From Oceanicaulis sp. HLUCCA04 (GTDB lineage Bacteria > Pseudomonadota > Alphaproteobacteria > Caulobacterales > Maricaulaceae), in contig LJSH01000001.1 of NCBI GenBank assembly GCA_001314625.1, forward strand, positions 62,001 to 126,000: a stretch of DNA of 64,000 nucleotides, written 5' to 3'. A program made the position numbers and the translations under genes. The notes below the pieces were generated by a model. It did not search any database and was not told where the DNA came from. It saw only the letters and a program-made list of their open reading frames with translations. Positions 51,336-60,528 of the stretch are shown one piece after another. Within the stretch, counting starts at the first letter, position 1, and every line of letters begins with the position of its first letter.

Positions 51336-51641
51336 ATGCGCCTTGACAGAGCAGCGAAGACCCGTGATTTCAACGCTTTGTGCGAGGCCTTGCTGGCTGC
51401 CCGCACGCAAGGCGAGATGGCGCGCTTCCTCACAGACCTGACCACGCCGGGTGAGCGCGAGGCACTGGCCGAGCGCTGGCGGGTGGCCCAGCTTCTCGAA
51501 GCGGGCAAATCCTATCGCGAGATCAGCGCCGAGACCGGCGTTTCCACCACCACGGTCACGCGCGTGGCGCGCTTTCTCGCGCAGGAGCCCCATCAGGGCT
51601 ACCGCCTGATCCTTGACCGCCTGAAGGAGACAGCACAATGA
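51336..51641 (+). CDS. YerC/YecD family TrpR-related protein
   Basis: EMARFLTDLTTPGEREALAERWRVAQLLEAGKSYREISAETGVSTTTVTRVARFL: TrpR-like HTH. Confidence 0.9.
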   Translation: MRLDRAAKTRDFNALCEALLAARTQGEMARFLTDLTTPGEREALAERWRVAQLLEAGKSYREISAETGVSTTTVTRVARFLAQEPHQGYRLILDRLKETAQ

Positions 51642-52522
51642 GCGCGAACCGTCTCACCCTTGCCATGCAGAAAAAAGGCCGGCTCGCCGAAGGCGGGTTG
51701 GACCTTCTCAAACGCGCAGGCGTGAAGCTCGCCTATGCGCGTGACGAGCTGATGCGCCGCGCGGAAAACCTGCCGCTCGACCTGATGCTGATCCGCGATG
51801 ACGATATCCCCAGCTTCGTCGCCTCAGGCGCGTGCGGGTGCGGTATTGTCGGCGAGAATGTGCTGGCCGAGGCCGCCGCGCGTTCGCCGCGCGTGGCGGG
51901 GCTGGAAATCGTCCAGCGTCTGGCCTTTGCCCGATGCACGCTCAAACTTGCTGCGCCGGTGGACGGGCCGGTGAAGACGGTCGCTGACCTTGAGGGCCGT
52001 GCCATCGCCACCTCCTATCCGGCGCTGACAGCGAAATTCCTCAAAGAGCGCGGCATAACGGCCGAGATCGTCGAGATGGGCGGCTCGGTGGAGGTCGCTC
52101 CGCGTATGAATATCGCCGATGCGATCTGCGATCTGGTCTCTACCGGCGCGACTCTGGAGGCCAATGGGCTGACCGCCTTCGAGACCGTGCTGGAAAGCGA
52201 GGCGGTGCTGATCGCCAACCCGGATGCGCTCAATGGCTCAGGCGCGACGCTGGACCTGCTGGTGGAGCGCTTCAAGGGCGTCATCGCGTCTCGCCAGACC
52301 AAATATATCCTTCTGAATGCCCCCAAGGACCGGCTGGACGAGATCCGCGCCGTGCTGCCGGGCGCCGATTCGCCGACCGTGGCAGCGGTGGTAGGCCGTG
52401 ATGATGTGGTCGCCATCCATGCGGTGTGCACCGAGGAGGTGTTCTGGTCGACGCTGGAGAAGCTCAAAGCCGCAGGCGGGCGCTCCATCCTGGTTCTGCC
52501 GATCGAAAAGATGATGGCGTAA
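51638..52522 (+). CDS. hisG: ATP phosphoribosyltransferase (long form)
   Basis: LAMQKKGRLAEGGLDLLKRAG, ADAICDLVSTGATLEANGL; 294 aa including C-terminal regulatory-type domain. Confidence 0.95.
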   Translation: MSANRLTLAMQKKGRLAEGGLDLLKRAGVKLAYARDELMRRAENLPLDLMLIRDDDIPSFVASGACGCGIVGENVLAEAAARSPRVAGLEIVQRLAFARCTLKLAAPVDGPVKTVADLEGRAIATSYPALTAKFLKERGITAEIVEMGGSVEVAPRMNIADAICDLVSTGATLEANGLTAFETVLESEAVLIANPDALNGSGATLDLLVERFKGVIASRQTKYILLNAPKDRLDEIRAVLPGADSPTVAAVVGRDDVVAIHAVCTEEVFWSTLEKLKAAGGRSILVLPIEKMMA

Positions 52523-52525
52523 ACG

Positions 52526-53839
52526 ATGGCATTATTGACCCGATATGTCTGGGCGCAGCTGTCGCCCGAAGAGCGCGTGGAGCTCATGGCGCGGCCCAGT
52601 GCGGGCTCGGATGCGTTGGCGGTAGCCGCAAATATCCTGTCTGAGGTGCGCAGCGAAGGCGAGGCGGCGGTGCGCCGTTATGCGCAAGAGCTCGATGGCT
52701 ACGCGCCCGATGATTTGCGCGTCCCCGCCGCCGATCTGAAAGCCGCAGCCGATGCGCTGGACCCCGAAGACGCGAGGGCCATTCTGGCGGCCGCCGACGC
52801 CGTGCGCCGCTATCACGCCGAGCAAGGATATAAATCCTATTCGCTGGAGACCTGGCCGGGCGGCGTGGCGCAGCGGCGCGTCTCGCCGCTGGATGTGGCC
52901 GGGCTCTACGTGCCTGCGGGCACCGCGCCGCTGGTCTCAACCCTGGTCATGCTCGCTATCCCGGCCCAGATCGCGGGCGTCAGCCGGATCGCGGTTCTCA
53001 CCCCGCCCGTGAACGCCGCCGGGCCTGACCGCACCATTCTGGGCGCGGCGCATCTGCTTGGCCTTGACGAGGTGTATGCGCTTGGCGGCGCGCACGGCGT
53101 TGCCGCGCTGGGGCTCGGCGTTGCCGGCCTGCCGCGCGCTGACCGTATTTTCGGCCCCGGCAATGCCTATGTCGCTGCCGCCAAGGCGCTTCTCGCGCAG
53201 ACGCAAGGCGGCGCGGCCACCGACCTGCCGGCCGGTCCCAGCGAGGTCATCATCATCGCCGATGACGGCGCCGACCCGGACTTTGTGGCCCTTGATCTTC
53301 TCGCCCAGGCCGAACATGACCGGCTCGCGCAAGTGGTCCTCATCGCCTTCTCCGATGCCTTCATCGACAAGGTGGAAGCTGCTCTGGAAGCCCGCCTTGA
53401 TGGACTTGCGAGGCGTGACATTGCGCTTGCGGCGCTCCAGGGCTCGAAGGTATTCCTCGTGAACGACGATGCGGATGCGGTGGCGGCGGCGGACGCCTAT
53501 GCGGGCGAGCACCTCATCATCCAGACAGCCGACCCGGAAGCGCTCTGCGCCCGCATCACCCATGCCGGGTCCATATTCCTCGGTCCATGGACGCCCGAGG
53601 CGGCGGGCGATTACGCCGCCGGTCCCAACCATTCCCTGCCGACCGGCGGCGCGGCCAGGGCCTATGGCGGTGTCAGCGTCGAGATGTTCCAGAAGACGAC
53701 CAGCATCTTGCGTTTCGACGCCAGAGGCGCAGCGGCCATCGCGCCCACCGTGGAGCGGCTCGCCGCCCTCGAAGGGCTCGATGCGCACCGGCTCGCCATG
53801 GCGGCGCGCCGCGAGAAAGCGCAAGAAGGAGGGCTGTGA
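52526..53839 (+). CDS. hisD: histidinol dehydrogenase
   Basis: YVPAGTAPLVSTLVMLAIPAQIAG, DLPAGPSEVIIIADDGADPDFVALDLLAQAEHD, GPNHSLPTGGAAR. Confidence 0.96.
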   Translation: MALLTRYVWAQLSPEERVELMARPSAGSDALAVAANILSEVRSEGEAAVRRYAQELDGYAPDDLRVPAADLKAAADALDPEDARAILAAADAVRRYHAEQGYKSYSLETWPGGVAQRRVSPLDVAGLYVPAGTAPLVSTLVMLAIPAQIAGVSRIAVLTPPVNAAGPDRTILGAAHLLGLDEVYALGGAHGVAALGLGVAGLPRADRIFGPGNAYVAAAKALLAQTQGGAATDLPAGPSEVIIIADDGADPDFVALDLLAQAEHDRLAQVVLIAFSDAFIDKVEAALEARLDGLARRDIALAALQGSKVFLVNDDADAVAAADAYAGEHLIIQTADPEALCARITHAGSIFLGPWTPEAAGDYAAGPNHSLPTGGAARAYGGVSVEMFQKTTSILRFDARGAAAIAPTVERLAALEGLDAHRLAMAARREKAQEGGL

Positions 53840-53840
53840 C

Positions 53841-55049
53841 ATGAGCGCCATTATGGACCTGTCAGCCGGGCCGGGGACAAGATCGGATCTATCCCGCAAG
53901 GCGCTCATCGCGCGGCTGTCGGATGTCTTGAGCTGCGATCCGGCGCGGCTGGTGCTGGCGCTCAACGCCGCTGCCGCGCAGCAAGCGCTGGCAGCAATGG
54001 ATATAGCGTTCGATGCCAGCCGTCTGGCAGAGGGCCTTGCGGCGCTGGAAAGCCCGTCAAAAGAAGGCGTTACGCTCTACCTGCTGGGCGCGGATACCAG
54101 CGATATTGTGGTAATAGATACCGCCGATCCGGCGCTGGCGGCCAAACTCACCCCGCATCTGAGCCTGCCATACCCTGTTTTCGGCCCCGAAATACTGCCG
54201 CGCCTCTCGCCTGCTGCAATTTTGTCGGCAAAAGCCGATTGGGATCAACGCGCTGCACTGATGTCGGTGTGTGCTGCGCGAATAGGCGAACTGACCGGCG
54301 CCCAGGTGGATAGCGAGGGGGATAAACTCACCCTCTCCAGCCCTGACCGGGCGGCGCTGACGCAGCGCCTCAATGCTCTGGGGTTGAAGCTGGACGAAAC
54401 GCAAGACGGCTTTGCCGCCTGGGTGTTGTCGCTTTCCGAGGCGAAGGCATTGGCTGCGTATCTGGGTGGGCTCAAGGCGCCGCGCACGGCCTCCATCCGG
54501 CGCACCACGAAAGAGACCGATATCGCGCTCTTCATCGATCTGGATGGCGAGGGCGGGCGGTTTGAAACCGGCGTTCACTTCTTTGATCACATGCTCGAAC
54601 AGGTCTCGCGCCATGGCGGCTTCCGTCTCGATGTGGTGTGCGAGGGCGATATCGAGGTCGATACCCACCACACGATCGAGGATGTCTGTCTGGCGCTGGG
54701 CGAAGGCTTGCGCGTCGCGCTGGGCGACAAGGCGGGCATTGCCCGTTTCGGCTTCTCCCTGCCCATGGATGAAACGCGCGCAGGCGTCTGGATCGATCTG
54801 TCGGGCCGTCCCTTCCTGCGCTTTGATGGCGAGATCCCCGGCGAGCGGGTGGGGGATTACCCGGTGGATATGTGCGCGCACGCTTTCCGCTCGATCTCCG
54901 AAACGCTCAAAGCGGCTATCCATGTCGAGGTCAGCGGGGATAACCCCCACCACATGATCGAGGCCTGCTACAAGGCGTTTGGCCGCGCGCTGCGTCAGGC
55001 CATCCGGATAGAAGGCGCCGCCATCCCCTCCACAAAAGGGGTATTGTGA
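53841..55049 (+). CDS. hisB: imidazoleglycerol-phosphate dehydratase with about 213-aa N-terminal extension resembling degenerate HisC
   Basis: C-terminal IGPD domain [47 protein letters not shown]...[18 protein letters not shown] from about 54483; N-terminal part lacks HAD phosphatase motifs. Confidence 0.93.
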   Translation: [402 protein letters not shown]

Positions 55050-55132
55050 TGGGGGGCGGACGAGGGTTGTGCGCGATCTCCCCTGAAACCCCGGACGACC
55101 AGAGGGAGACCCGGGGCCTCTCTCCGCTTCTC

Positions 55133-55176
55133 CTGAAACAGGTCCCGGACAGCGCTGCGCGCTTCCGGGATTTCAG
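55133..55176. repeat. intergenic palindromic (REP-like) hairpin inside his operon
   Basis: CTGAAA...TCCCGGA-c-AGCGC-tgc-GCGCT-TCCGGGA-TTTCAG; a further CCCCGG/CCGGGG pair at 55089..55116. Confidence 0.6.
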
Positions 55177-55191
55177 AGAGTTAATAGCTGC

Positions 55192-55800
55192 ATGACCCTC
55201 GCCCTGATCGATACCTCCACCGCGAATATTGCGAGCGTGCGCTATGCGCTGAACCGGCTGGGCATGGACCCTGTCCTCGCAGCGACACCGGGAGACGCGC
55301 AAAGCGCTACGAAACTTGTCCTGCCGGGCGTGGGCGCGGCGGGCCCCGCAATGCGGGCGCTGGAGCGCTCTGGCTGGGCCGATGCCCTGCGAAATGACAC
55401 ACGGCCGCTGCTGGGTGTGTGCCTGGGTATGCAGCTATTGTTCGGGGAAAGTGACGAGGATAGCGGCGCGGGCGGGCCGGTATCGTTGCTGGGACTTGTC
55501 CCCGGCCGGGTGGAGCGTCTGGACCCAGCGGGCGCGGGTCCGTGGCCGCACATGGGCTGGAATACCCTCGATTTCCTGCCCGGTTCAGACCCGTTGCTCG
55601 AAGGGATAGAGCCCGGCGCCCATGTCTATTTTGTCCATGGTTTTTACGTGCCCGAAGGCCCCGCCACCATCGCCACAACAACCTATGGACCGGGGATAAG
55701 CGCCATGATCCGCCATGGACATATTGCCGGCTGCCAGTTCCACCCGGAACGTTCCGGCGCGGTGGGTGCACGCATTTTGTCCAATTTTATCAAGGGCTAG
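55192..55800 (+). CDS. hisH: imidazole glycerol phosphate synthase, glutamine amidotransferase subunit
   Basis: GVCLGMQLLFGESDE (nucleophile Cys), GWNTLDF, HGHIAGCQFHPERSG. Confidence 0.95.
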   Translation: MTLALIDTSTANIASVRYALNRLGMDPVLAATPGDAQSATKLVLPGVGAAGPAMRALERSGWADALRNDTRPLLGVCLGMQLLFGESDEDSGAGGPVSLLGLVPGRVERLDPAGAGPWPHMGWNTLDFLPGSDPLLEGIEPGAHVYFVHGFYVPEGPATIATTTYGPGISAMIRHGHIAGCQFHPERSGAVGARILSNFIKG

Positions 55801-55803
55801 GAA

Positions 55804-56526
55804 ATGATACTTTATCCAGCCATAGATGTCCTTGACGGTCGGGTCGTTCGGCTCGCAAAGGGGGATTTCTCTGCCGTCACCGATTATGGCGATGATCCGG
55901 TAGCCGTCGCCAGCGCCTATCGCGATGCCGGGGCAGACTGGCTGCATCTGGTCGATCTGTCCGGTGCGCGCGATGGCGCGAGACGCCAGCTATCCCTCGT
56001 GGAGAACGTCGCCGCGACCGGCATCAAGGTGCAGACCGGCGGCGGTGTACGCACGGGCGAAGATATTGAATCGCTGCTGGAATCGGGGGCGTCACGGGTC
56101 GTGATCGGATCACTCGCCATTACCGATCCGGCGCGCGTTTCGGCATGGCTTGTCCGCTATGGGGCGCAAGCCATCGCCGCCGCTTTTGATGTGCGCATGA
56201 AGGGGGATATCCCGGTGCCTGTGGTCAAGGGCTGGACGGAAGAAGCGGGGACAACACTGGGCGAATTGCTGCAAGCCTATCAGCGCCATGGCCTGCGCCA
56301 TGCGCTGGTCACCGACACGGGCCGCGACGGCATGCTGGAGGGCATAAATACCACGCTTTATCAAAGCCTTGTCGCCTCCCGGCCGGAGATCGCCTGGCAG
56401 GCGTCCGGCGGTGTCGCCACGCTGGACGATATCCGGCAGGCGAAAGCCCTCAAAATGGGCGGAGTAATCATCGGCAGGGCGCTGTTTGAAGGCCGCTTCA
56501 CGCTGACCGAGGCATTGGCATGCTAG
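55804..56526 (+). CDS. hisA: phosphoribosylformimino-5-aminoimidazole carboxamide ribotide isomerase
   Basis: [64 protein letters not shown]. Confidence 0.95.
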
Positions 56527-57287
56527 CCCGGCGCATCATTCCCTGTCTGGATGTACGCGATGGCAAAGTGGTCAAGGGCGTGCGCTTCAAGGACCACGAG
56601 ATCGTCGGCGATATCGTCGACCTTGCAAGGCTTTACGCGCAGCAGGGCGCCGATGAGCTGGTCTTCTACGACATCTCCGCCAGCCCGGAGGGCCGCGAGG
56701 TGGAGCCCGCCTGGGTGGGCCGCGTGGCGCAAGTGATCGACATACCGTTCTGCGTGGCCGGCGGCATACGCTCGGTGACGGCGGCGCGTGCGCGCCTGCA
56801 TGCGGGGGCAGACAAGATATCCATCAACACGCCCGCGCTTGAAAACCCCAGCCTGATCAATGATCTGGCCGATGAATTTGGCTCCCAGTGTGTGGTTGTC
56901 GGCATGGATAGCCGAAAAATTGGGGGGATATGGCGCTTGCATCAATATACTGGCGACCCGGACCGTACCCTGACCAGCGAGCGTGATACGCTGTCATGGA
57001 TAAAGGAAGTCGTGGACCGGGGCGCAGGCGAGATTGTCCTTAATTGCATGGACCAGGACGGTGTACGCCAAGGCTATGATATTGAACAGTTAATTGTCGC
57101 CAGAGAAGTCTGCCCGGTGCCCCTGATATCCTCCGGCGGAGCGGGCGCGATGGACCATTTCGAGGACGTGTTCAAAAAGGCCAATGTTGACGGGGCGTTA
57201 GCGGCAAGTGTGTTCCACAAGGGCGTGATTTCCATCCCCGATCTGAAGACTTATCTCGCACAATCCGGCATCGAGGTGCGCCCATGA
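56520..57287 (+). CDS. hisF: imidazole glycerol phosphate synthase, cyclase subunit
   Basis: [59 protein letters not shown]. Confidence 0.96.
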
Positions 57288-57913
57288 GCGACGATCTCTC
57301 CGCGCTTTCCGCAGCGCAAGTCGACTTTGAAAAAGGCGATGGCCTGGTTCCTGCCATCGTCCAGCACAGTCTGACCGGCGAAGTGCTGATGCTCGGCTAT
57401 ATGAATGCTGAAGCGCTGCAGGTGACGCAAGCCAAGGGCCTTGTAACCTTCTGGAGCCGTTCAAAGAACCGTCTCTGGACCAAGGGTGAAACCTCCGGTG
57501 ATGTGCTGCGCCTTGTCAGTCTCGCCGCCGATTGCGACCGCGATGCGATATTGGTGCAGGCTCTGCCCGAGGGACCGACCTGCCATCTGGGCACGCGCTC
57601 GTGCTTTGGTGAGTATCCCGGCCCGGCGCTGGCTTTCTTGGGCGAACTGTCCGCAATCGTGGACAAGCGGGCAGGGGCCGATCCCGAAGACAGCTACACT
57701 GCGCGGCTATTAGCCAATGGAATCAACAAGGTAGCGCAAAAAGTGGGCGAAGAGGGCGTGGAAACGGCGCTCGCGGGCGTTTCAGAGGATAATTCGGCCC
57801 TCACCGGTGAGGCGGCGGACCTCGTCTTCCACCTCATTGTCCTCTTGAAAGCGCGCGGCCTGTCCCTCACGGATGTCACCGAAGAATTGAAGCGCCGCCA
57901 CGCCAGGGCGTGA
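57284..57913 (+). CDS. hisIE: bifunctional phosphoribosyl-AMP cyclohydrolase/phosphoribosyl-ATP pyrophosphatase
   Basis: HisI part [37 protein letters not shown]...DCDRDAILV and HisE part [28 protein letters not shown]. Confidence 0.95.
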
Positions 57914-57939
57914 CAGCGCTTGGCTTTTGTGACCCGGCC

Positions 57940-60528
57940 TTACTGCGCGCTCCGGTAGGGATTGCGGAAATCATCCCCGAAGAAGACCGCGTTTGTCAGC
58001 ACCCGCGCAGAGCCGCGGAAATAGGCCCGGAAGTAGGGATTGTCGGCAAACAGGATCACCGCGCCGCTCCCGCGCCGCTCGGCATGAACAGCTCCAAGCC
58101 CTTGAATAGCTTGGATATTCGCCTCGGACGCATAGCCTGACAGCAAGCCATTTTCCGCGTAACGTATTGGAAGTGCAAAGGGATTGTCGCCCGGAGCAAA
58201 GCCGCTTGCGCTTTCGCGGTGAACCGGAAGACGGTTGGAGGCAAGGCCGAAGAGGAGGGGGTGGGAGAGATCCACATCTGTCGCGAAGATAGCCCCCGAA
58301 ACACCCTCGACCGTGTCCCATCGAGAAATCGTCTCATAGGCCAGGGCATCGGGGCCAGCGCTATCCCCCTCGCGCTCGGCGTAGCGGGCCGAGGCGAGCT
58401 CGTTGCGGATCGCCAAGTTGGCGCCCCCCTGGATGCCGATCAGCACCCCGCCTGCGCGCGTCCATTCGCCCAGCCTTTCAGCATCGGATTCGCCAAAGCC
58501 CGCATAGCCGCCATTGGGCAGGATGATATGGGTGTAGCGTGACAGATTGGCGCCGGAGAACTCGCTGATATCAATCATGGAAACCGGCATTTCCAGTTCA
58601 TGATCGAACAGGTGCCAAAGCTCGCCTGCGGCGTTCACATCCTGACCGCGTCCCGTCAGCAGCAGGATTTCCGGCCGGCGCACCGTGTTCACACCGAACC
58701 CGCCCAGATACGACCCTTCGCCGCTGGTGCCGGTGATGGCGGCATGAACCGTCACACCGTCCCCGGCTGCCCTCTGGACAAGGGCGTGGACAGTTTGCGG
58801 GTCGACGCCCTGCTGGCGCACCTGAATCACCACTGAACCGGGCGGGACAGTCACCTCGCCATCCGCCGTTGTGACAGTGATAGAATCCGGAACCATCCGC
58901 GCGCGGATGCCCGCTTCGAGGAAGCGGTATACGGCTCTCGGCGCGTAAAAGTTAGTCCAGTCAATGACATAGGCGTAGCCGGTAGTGGGCGGGGCAGGGA
59001 CCGCCCGGTCAGGCGCGCCGGCCCGCTCGCCAGCAAGATCCGGCGCGAAGAAACCGGGTCTAACGGGAGCAAAATCAAGGCCATAGGCCAGCGGCTGGGT
59101 CCAGCCGGAGACATCGTAAAACTCGGTCATGCCCTCCACGATGCGGGTCTCGAACAGGGCTTCGACAACGCGGAACTCACGCTGGCGGGCATTGACTACG
59201 TAGCTGTTTGCCGGGTCGAAATCTGTATTGTCCAGTCTTACGCGGCGCGAAAGCCGGTGAACCTCGATGCCATGAACATCCAGCATCTCAAGGAAATCAT
59301 TCAGCCTTCCGCTATCGGGCGAGCTGAACACATAGGCGAGGTTGGTTGCCGCACCGGCAAGCCGCGCGCCTTCGCGGTAGAAATCGCGCTGGAAGGACAG
59401 AAGTTGTTCACGGTTGGCAAGACCGGCGCGGATCAGTGCCAGACCGACGCGAGCCTGCTGGCCGATCTTGTCGTCGTAACGCAATGTTCCAAAATCGGTT
59501 TCCTGAATGATGCCGCGCACGGAGCTTTGCTCGAACAGATAGGGCACCGAGCCGACAAGGCCGGGATAACTCGAGCCGTAGCCGAGGTAGAAATCGTCGA
59601 AGAATTCCTCGCTTACATAGAGCGCGCCCTCGCCGTCGAGTTGCTCGTTCAGAAAGCTGTTCATGCGCAGATTAAGTTGCAGCCCGTCCTGTGACAGAAT
59701 CGGGTGCAGTCCGGCCGGTGGTCCGGGAGAAAAGAAATAGGTGGAATTGGTACCCATCTCGTGAAAGTCAGCCGCTATATTGGGCATCCATTCACGCGTC
59801 GCGCGCACCAGGGCCGCCGCCTCGGGCTGGGTAACGGGCAGCCACTGGCGGTTGATGTCGAACCAGTAATGGTTGGTCCGGCCCCATGGCCATTCATTGT
59901 AATGTTCCCGGTGCTGCGGGTCGGCGACCGGCACCCGCGCGCGGTGCATGTTCGTCCAGCTAGCAAAGCGGTCCGCGCCGTCAGGGTTGATTGGCCCGAT
60001 CAGGTGGATGACCGAACGGTCAAGCAAATCAGCGACTTCCGACCCCTGGCCGGCGGCCAGAAAATAGAGAAGCGGCATGATGGCATCGTAGCCGGAGGGC
60101 TCTGATCCATGCACGCCATGCGTGAACTGGATGATCACCGGATGGTCTTGCGGGATGGCATCGTTGTTGCTGGCCTGCGAAATTTCGTGCTGGGCATCGC
60201 GGATTTCCCCCAGCCGGGCGTGATTTTCCGGCGAGGTGATCGTTACCCGCATGATCTGACGGCCAAAATGGGAGCGCCCTACGGAATCGACGCTGACCCT
60301 GTCCGACGCTGCAGCGACAGCGCGCATATAGTCGGCGATCATGGCAGGCGTGTAGATGATGCTGCCGACGGCAAACCCCGTCACATCTTCAGGCAAGGGG
60401 ATTGCAGGATCGTACTCGACATCCTGGCCGATCAGATCAACTAAGGGGGCAGGCTCATAGGCCTCCGCCGGGAAGACCCAGAGACAGGCGGCCAGCACAA
60501 CGACCACCACGAACCGGCAAAGCACCAT
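57940..60528 (-). CDS. M14 family zinc carboxypeptidase-like metallopeptidase
   Basis: Signal peptide MVLCRFVVVVVLAACLWVFPAEA; Zn motif FTHGVHGSEPSG, later AADFHEMGTNSTYFF; start ATG 60528. Confidence 0.88.
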   Translation of the reverse strand: MVLCRFVVVVVLAACLWVFPAEAYEPAPLVDLIGQDVEYDPAIPLPEDVTGFAVGSIIYTPAMIADYMRAVAAASDRVSVDSVGRSHFGRQIMRVTITSPENHARLGEIRDAQHEISQASNNDAIPQDHPVIIQFTHGVHGSEPSGYDAIMPLLYFLAAGQGSEVADLLDRSVIHLIGPINPDGADRFASWTNMHRARVPVADPQHREHYNEWPWGRTNHYWFDINRQWLPVTQPEAAALVRATREWMPNIAADFHEMGTNSTYFFSPGPPAGLHPILSQDGLQLNLRMNSFLNEQLDGEGALYVSEEFFDDFYLGYGSSYPGLVGSVPYLFEQSSVRGIIQETDFGTLRYDDKIGQQARVGLALIRAGLANREQLLSFQRDFYREGARLAGAATNLAYVFSSPDSGRLNDFLEMLDVHGIEVHRLSRRVRLDNTDFDPANSYVVNARQREFRVVEALFETRIVEGMTEFYDVSGWTQPLAYGLDFAPVRPGFFAPDLAGERAGAPDRAVPAPPTTGYAYVIDWTNFYAPRAVYRFLEAGIRARMVPDSITVTTADGEVTVPPGSVVIQVRQQGVDPQTVHALVQRAAGDGVTVHAAITGTSGEGSYLGGFGVNTVRRPEILLLTGRGQDVNAAGELWHLFDHELEMPVSMIDISEFSGANLSRYTHIILPNGGYAGFGESDAERLGEWTRAGGVLIGIQGGANLAIRNELASARYAEREGDSAGPDALAYETISRWDTVEGVSGAIFATDVDLSHPLLFGLASNRLPVHRESASGFAPGDNPFALPIRYAENGLLSGYASEANIQAIQGLGAVHAERRGSGAVILFADNPYFRAYFRGSARVLTNAVFFGDDFRNPYRSAQ

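Follow-up and report, generated by a model that had tools for sequence, protein, structure and literature searches.

A HisC remnant without its catalytic middle at the N-terminus of an alphaproteobacterial HisB

The histidine operon of Oceanicaulis sp. HLUCCA04 encodes a HisB protein of 402 amino acids, and our results support the identification of its residues 1–214 as a remnant of HisC, the histidinol-phosphate aminotransferase, that lacks the catalytic middle of the enzyme. An earlier reading of the sequence alone had proposed such a HisC as an in-frame fusion with HisB, and the evidence from profiles, predicted folds and relatives now agrees with it. The gene lies in a window of 64,000 nucleotides (contig LJSH01000001.1, positions 62,001 to 126,000), the whole stretch of DNA that we analysed, and was compared with its counterparts across the family, where 121 of 137 genomes gave a match; 77 loci were read besides that of the window. 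A single bacterial family, together with near relatives, holds a whole series of forms (working fusion, lysine-less, coreless and gone), and the decay of an enzyme domain inside a living gene can be observed across them. The redundancy with a native hisC is an apparent cause of the decay, and in one lineage the remnant has come back under constraint. We think it likely that the extension is the decayed HisC of a former fusion, in which redundancy led to loss of the core and left a passive folded leader.

The HisB extension and its relation to HisC

The operon reads hisG-hisD-hisB-hisH-hisA-hisF-hisIE, with an extended hisB and no hisC, just as the sequence-only reading had described it. Its features are as follows (window coordinates).

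51638..52522, forward strand: hisG, 294 amino acids, first gene of the operon (operon reading)
52526..53839, forward strand: hisD, upstream neighbour of hisB (operon reading)
53826..53832, forward strand: Shine-Dalgarno sequence AAGGAGG, which sets the hisB start ahead of the remnant
53841..54482, forward strand: coreless HisC remnant, HisB residues 1–214 (profile alignment, shuffles, AlphaFold2, Foldseek)
53895..53990, forward strand: residues 19–50, the HisC N-terminal helix, first strand and helix (HisC profile 64–95; E 4.3e-4)
53991..54119, forward strand: residues 51–93, a short substitute for about 137 HisC residues (profile 96–232; profile alignment)
54120..54485, forward strand: residues 94–215, the HisC long connecting helix and C-terminal small domain (profile 233–367; E 1.2e-5)
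54483..55049, forward strand: intact HisB imidazoleglycerol-phosphate dehydratase domain (PF00475), residues 215–402 (Pfam)
55192..57913, forward strand: hisH, hisA, hisF and hisIE, the remainder of the operon (operon reading)

The hisB reading frame (53841–55049, forward strand) begins with ATG just downstream of the hisD stop codon, which ends at 53839, and the AAGGAGG at 53826–53832 is the sole RRGGAGG within 52440–58251. The remnant lies between this only strong ribosome-binding site and the dehydratase, and HisB made from that site therefore includes it. The dehydratase domain, which begins at about residue 215, is complete (PF00475 positions 1–144 of 144, E 5.5e-55), and the NCBIfam model NF002111 matches the window HisB with 233 bits against a cut-off of 231. 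HisG is of the long form. Between hisB and hisH (55083–55176) there is a dispersed repeat of approximately 95 bp with strong hairpins, which has 29 matches in the genome at E <= 0.001; a hisB-hisH gap of approximately 200–400 bp is also found in three other Glycocaulis genomes, while in most other genera the gap is a few bases.

Domain libraries say little about the extension. Pfam and NCBIfam gave no significant family match for residues 1–214, and scans of the extension with 31 relatives returned only scattered sub-threshold matches, none of them to an aminotransferase model. The HisC model TIGR01141 matched neither the extension nor any of the 32 members, and sequence searches of the PDB, with the extension as a single sequence and as a profile, found nothing significant. 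The NNPTG, DEAY and SLSK (PLP lysine) motifs had been read as absent, and motif scans bear this out: NNPTG, DEAY and the C-terminal Arg motif occur in 0 of 32 coreless forms, and the PLP-binding lysine motif [ST][LF]SK in 0/32 coreless forms and 0/3 intermediates, compared to 27/27 intact fusions. The extension had also been distinguished, correctly, from the HAD phosphatase of the bifunctional HisNB. The DxDGT motif is absent from the window HisB, and we rejected the HisNB identity (NF003937), since the match covers only profile positions 163–355 and scores 268.7 bits against a cut-off of 443. A second “extension” match in another genome (G029, locus L082) was set aside as chance; we read its ORF as resembling a potassium/proton antiporter.

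The relation to HisC emerges when the profile of the 32 coreless extensions is compared (hhalign, profile against profile) with that of the 27 intact HisC sequences from the fusions described below. Residues 94–221 of the extension align to HisC 233–367 (E 1.2e-5, probability 81%, score 44.9), and with the intermediate forms added the alignment improves to E 5.9e-7 and a probability of 92%. Residues 19–50 align to HisC 64–95 (E 4.3e-4, score 34.7), collinear with the second segment; these are the same two stretches that had been aligned to HisC by eye. Among 500 column-shuffled HisC profiles none reaches either segment score (best shuffle 24.4), control profiles of HisG, HisD and IGPD score at most 20.6 against the extension, and the C-terminal register is the same in a run with 12 extensions and in one with the extension of genome G008 alone. 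The identity between extension and HisC is approximately 10%, and the hhalign probabilities of 81–92% are below 99%. The extension has lost HisC 96–232, which bears the PLP core, and the bulk of roughly the first 60 residues; in the window HisB, approximately 43 residues take the place of the approximately 137 of HisC in which NNPTG, DEAY and the PLP lysine lie. In the retained C-terminal part (residues 94–215), the arginine of the RISIG motif is missing.

The predicted structures point the same way. AlphaFold2 folds the window extension into a compact domain (pLDDT 86.5, pTM 0.77), with two strands predicted in the substitute segment (residues 77–81 and 90–93), and gives pLDDT 90.4 and pTM 0.80 for the extension of G116, which is 29% identical to that of the window. 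In a Foldseek search of the PDB with the window extension, each of the best seven matches is a histidinol-phosphate aminotransferase, with a probability of 1.00 and query TM-scores of 0.39–0.55. For the G116 extension, the top matches are fold-type-I PLP enzymes including HisC, with weaker E-values. A profile search without any relation to fold-type-I aminotransferases, or with a match to a known domain of another family, had been named as grounds for rejecting the HisC reading; the search gave neither. It might still be asked whether an unrelated domain, or random coding sequence, was joined to HisB and resembles HisC by chance, as the very low identity and the lack of library matches for single sequences would allow; given two collinear profile matches that shuffles do not reach, HisC as the best fold matches in the PDB, and, in related bacteria, lysine-less intermediates and an intact HisC at exactly this place, we regard such an origin as very unlikely on present evidence.

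Four states of the fused HisC among relatives

In the sister genera, 27 loci in the same operon slot encode an intact HisC of approximately 345–365 residues fused in frame to HisB, and all 27 carry the NNPTG-like loop, DEAY, the PLP lysine and AG-R. In three species of f3, a different family within the order, the HisC part measures 278–289 residues; NNPTG and DEAY are lost and, in the sequences read, SLSL stands in place of SLSK. The coreless form, 186–230 residues long, occurs in 32 species of seven genera including that of the window (g1, Glycocaulis; g5; g8; g11; g14; g15, Marinicauda; and G008 of g4). Finally, at 16 loci, in g10 and in G073 of g8, the fused HisC is absent and HisD and the dehydratase share one reading frame. 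Such single frames, with a short junction, were seen at L056, L070, L209–L216 and L223–L228 (G014, G030, G073, G099 and others); they amount to a HisD-HisB fusion of which we know no description. G030 of g10 is presumably Maricaulis maris MCS10, and species with this form are called Maricaulis-type here. Among the loci read there is no bare HisB within the operon: loss of HisC has always left a dehydratase fused to HisD. One genome, G140, has a second, short HisB (199-amino-acid frame; G140:C10:4398-4979) in addition to a longer form.

Outside this group the fusion occurs in a few other alphaproteobacterial families. Among 385 sampled genomes of the class, 8 gave a match over nearly the entire HisC-HisB fusion; the full-length forms seen outside the order of the window are those of G465, G371, G460, G537, G377, G276, G292 and G380. 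The ancestor of the window gene was probably a HisC-HisB fusion enzyme of the kind that is still intact in the sister genera.

Redundancy and history of the operon

The sequence-only reading had found no separate hisC in the operon. None lies there, but the genome has a complete hisC elsewhere, at G000:C1:362958-364010 (approximately 305 bits, against the TIGR01141 cut-off of 276.55). A HisN-type phosphatase candidate in the same genome lies just below its cut-off (269 versus 275 bits). Every one of the 46 genomes checked in which the fused HisC is dead or missing (31 coreless, 3 intermediate and 12 HisD-HisB) has a separate hisC above the TIGR01141 cut-off, while among the intact-fusion genomes 7 of 27 have one and 20 of 27 do not; these are counts of related species and not of independent events. 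In a HisC tree, the separate HisC of the coreless species groups with the canonical HisC of Caulobacterales (that of family f2; support 100), and the fused HisC lies at a distance from both.

The remnant should lack transaminase activity. That it still acts as a HisC, by another mechanism or with an active site completed by another protein, is suggested by its place in the operon's hisC slot; with the PLP lysine, DEAY, NNPTG and C-terminal Arg motifs missing in 32 of 32 forms, and a complete separate hisC in each genome checked that has a dead or missing fused HisC, this idea is scarcely credible and, to our minds, the least probable of those weighed here.

For the dehydratase, the closest outside relatives are mostly Bacteroidota among the matches listed in one scan. 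On account of these matches and of the HisC tree, the operon was probably acquired by horizontal transfer from a source of gamma- or Bacteroidota-type. The simplest reading is reciprocal loss after the transfer: the fused copy could decay in lineages that retained the native hisC and would stay intact in those that lost it. A working HisC-HisB fusion enzyme would have arrived with the transferred operon. Because the native separate hisC was also kept, the fused HisC would have become redundant, in an order of events that we infer. The fused copy would then have dropped its PLP-binding core of approximately 137 residues and its catalytic motifs, leaving an alpha/beta domain of 186–230 residues, and the transamination step would be supplied by the separate HisC, with the remnant inactive.

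A tree of HisG, HisD and IGPD, rooted on operons of Bacteroidota, Balneolales and Blochmannia, contains three clades. One holds intact fusions; another, of 47 rows, holds the coreless and HisD-HisB forms; the third is small and mixed, with intact forms, the f3 intermediates and G008. The coreless extension of G008 (locus L050) is homologous to those of the main coreless clade (blastp 5e-12, in the 32-sequence set), while its HisG and HisD group with the mixed clade that holds intact fusions; its IGPD is nearest to g8, without support. The AU test rejects the placement of every coreless and HisD-HisB form, G008 among them, in one clade (p 0.003) and does not reject one origin of the HisD-HisB forms (p 0.15). 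Because the extension of G008 has other affinities than its HisG and HisD, one simple loss is not sufficient; a transfer of hisB or a parallel loss may account for this. The his operon at L050 is possibly a mosaic.

Constraint, persistence and known systems

We estimated dN/dS between close species by YN00, with NG86 values for some pairs. In most pairs the extension has a dN/dS of approximately 0.2–0.4, compared to approximately 0.02–0.05 for the dehydratase, and it is below 1 in all pairs. The most conserved columns of the extension (M1, L22, G83, L122, P124, A201, L204, L208 and R215) are structural residues (Gly, Pro, Leu, Ala) and one linker Arg, with no conserved polar or catalytic-type site among them. 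Since dN/dS is well below 1 and hydrophobic positions are conserved, the remnant is not simply neutral. From branch lengths on a fixed clade tree, the extension evolves at 3.4 times the rate of the HisG+HisD+IGPD reference outside the G116 lineage, and at 0.8 times that rate in G116, G118 and G127, with approximately 50 inferred changes against approximately 205 expected (the Poisson figure ignores rate variation, and the lineage was chosen after the rates were seen). The remnant is therefore relaxed yet not free in most lineages, and under approximately enzyme-level constraint in one.

We suggest that the main reason for its persistence is its position: the remnant stands in frame, downstream of the only good ribosome-binding site and upstream of the dehydratase, where it would be obligatorily translated and, in that sense, trapped. 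As a passive leader it would have to fold without damage to HisB, and nothing short of a clean deletion in frame could remove it; the Maricaulis-type lineage would be such a case, with HisD-HisB as the outcome. A passive leader explains the moderate constraint, the variable and shrinking lengths and the full loss; it does not explain the constrained lineage. The sequence-only reading had suggested that the dead domain is retained for reasons of structure, assembly or regulation; since most lineages constrain the remnant weakly and Maricaulis-type species lack it altogether, it is unlikely to be essential.

The alternative is that the remnant is a working non-catalytic module, involved in assembly of the HisB oligomer or in docking of the separate HisC or HisD, comparable to the inactive dihydroorotase chain of Pseudomonas aspartate transcarbamoylase. 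The confident folds predicted for two sequences only 29% identical fit such a role, as do dN/dS values below 1 in every pair, an extension in G116, G118 and G127 as slow as the enzymes (approximately 50 versus 205 changes), the absence of a bare HisB in the operon among the loci read, where loss leads to a HisD fusion, and precedents in other proteins (PMC7053772, PMC8659124). However, the extension evolves approximately three times faster than the operon enzymes in most lineages, its conserved columns are Gly, Pro, Leu and Ala with the linker Arg and offer no conserved polar site, and Maricaulis-type species dispense with it. We consider a role of this kind possible but doubtful, and prefer the passive leader for most lineages.

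For G116, G118 and G127, the strong constraint suggests re-use, and a secondary role is the better guess there, perhaps in HisB assembly or in contact with other His enzymes. It is tempting, if still speculative, to suppose that in at least this one lineage the remnant was re-recruited as a non-catalytic module of HisB, e.g., to dock the separate HisC to the dehydratase. If true, these bacteria would record how an enzyme decayed and how a new function then arose from what was left of it. Whether a dead domain persists by mutational trapping or by new function becomes directly testable in a small gene.

Dead pathway-enzyme domains in fusions and complexes are already known, from Ura2 and from the Pseudomonas pseudo-dihydroorotase, while neither the HisC-HisB fusion nor the dead form derived from it seems to have been described: the eight fused genes named in reviews of his-gene fusions do not include hisC (PMC1963479; also PMC10138114). 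We found no HisC-HisB fusion in the titles and abstracts of the open-access literature. The direct homologue, and likely the ancestral state, is the fusion of the sister genera and a few other alphaproteobacterial families, which differs in its full-length, motif-complete HisC. HisNB, the bifunctional HisB of enterobacteria and some Bacteroidota (PMC1963479), likewise joins an N-terminal pathway-enzyme domain to the same dehydratase; its N-terminal part is an active HAD phosphatase, whereas that of the window is a dead HisC. In the same pathway, HisZ, the histidyl-tRNA-synthetase-like regulatory subunit of short HisG (PMC10795190), is also a relative of another enzyme serving as a non-catalytic partner, but it is a separate, functional allosteric subunit, and HisG here is of the long form. 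In Pseudomonas, an inactive pseudo-dihydroorotase chain is needed for the activity of aspartate transcarbamoylase (PMC7053772). It too is a dead relative of a pathway enzyme retained in an enzyme complex, but as a separate chain with a demonstrated role, in contrast to the fused remnant here, for which any role is conjectural.

Yeast Ura2 contains a defective dihydroorotase-like domain within a CPSase-ATCase fusion, next to a separate active dihydroorotase (PMC8659124, PMC4581275). Both cases present a dead pathway-enzyme domain in a multi-domain biosynthetic protein with a separate gene supplying the activity, and the window HisB, from its sequence, shares the lost catalytic residues and the separate enzyme gene; the pathway and the fold are different. 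As far as is known, the dihydroorotase-like domain of Ura2 is approximately full length, whereas approximately 137 core residues are lost here. Unlike in Ura2, all stages from intact to absent coexist here among close relatives.
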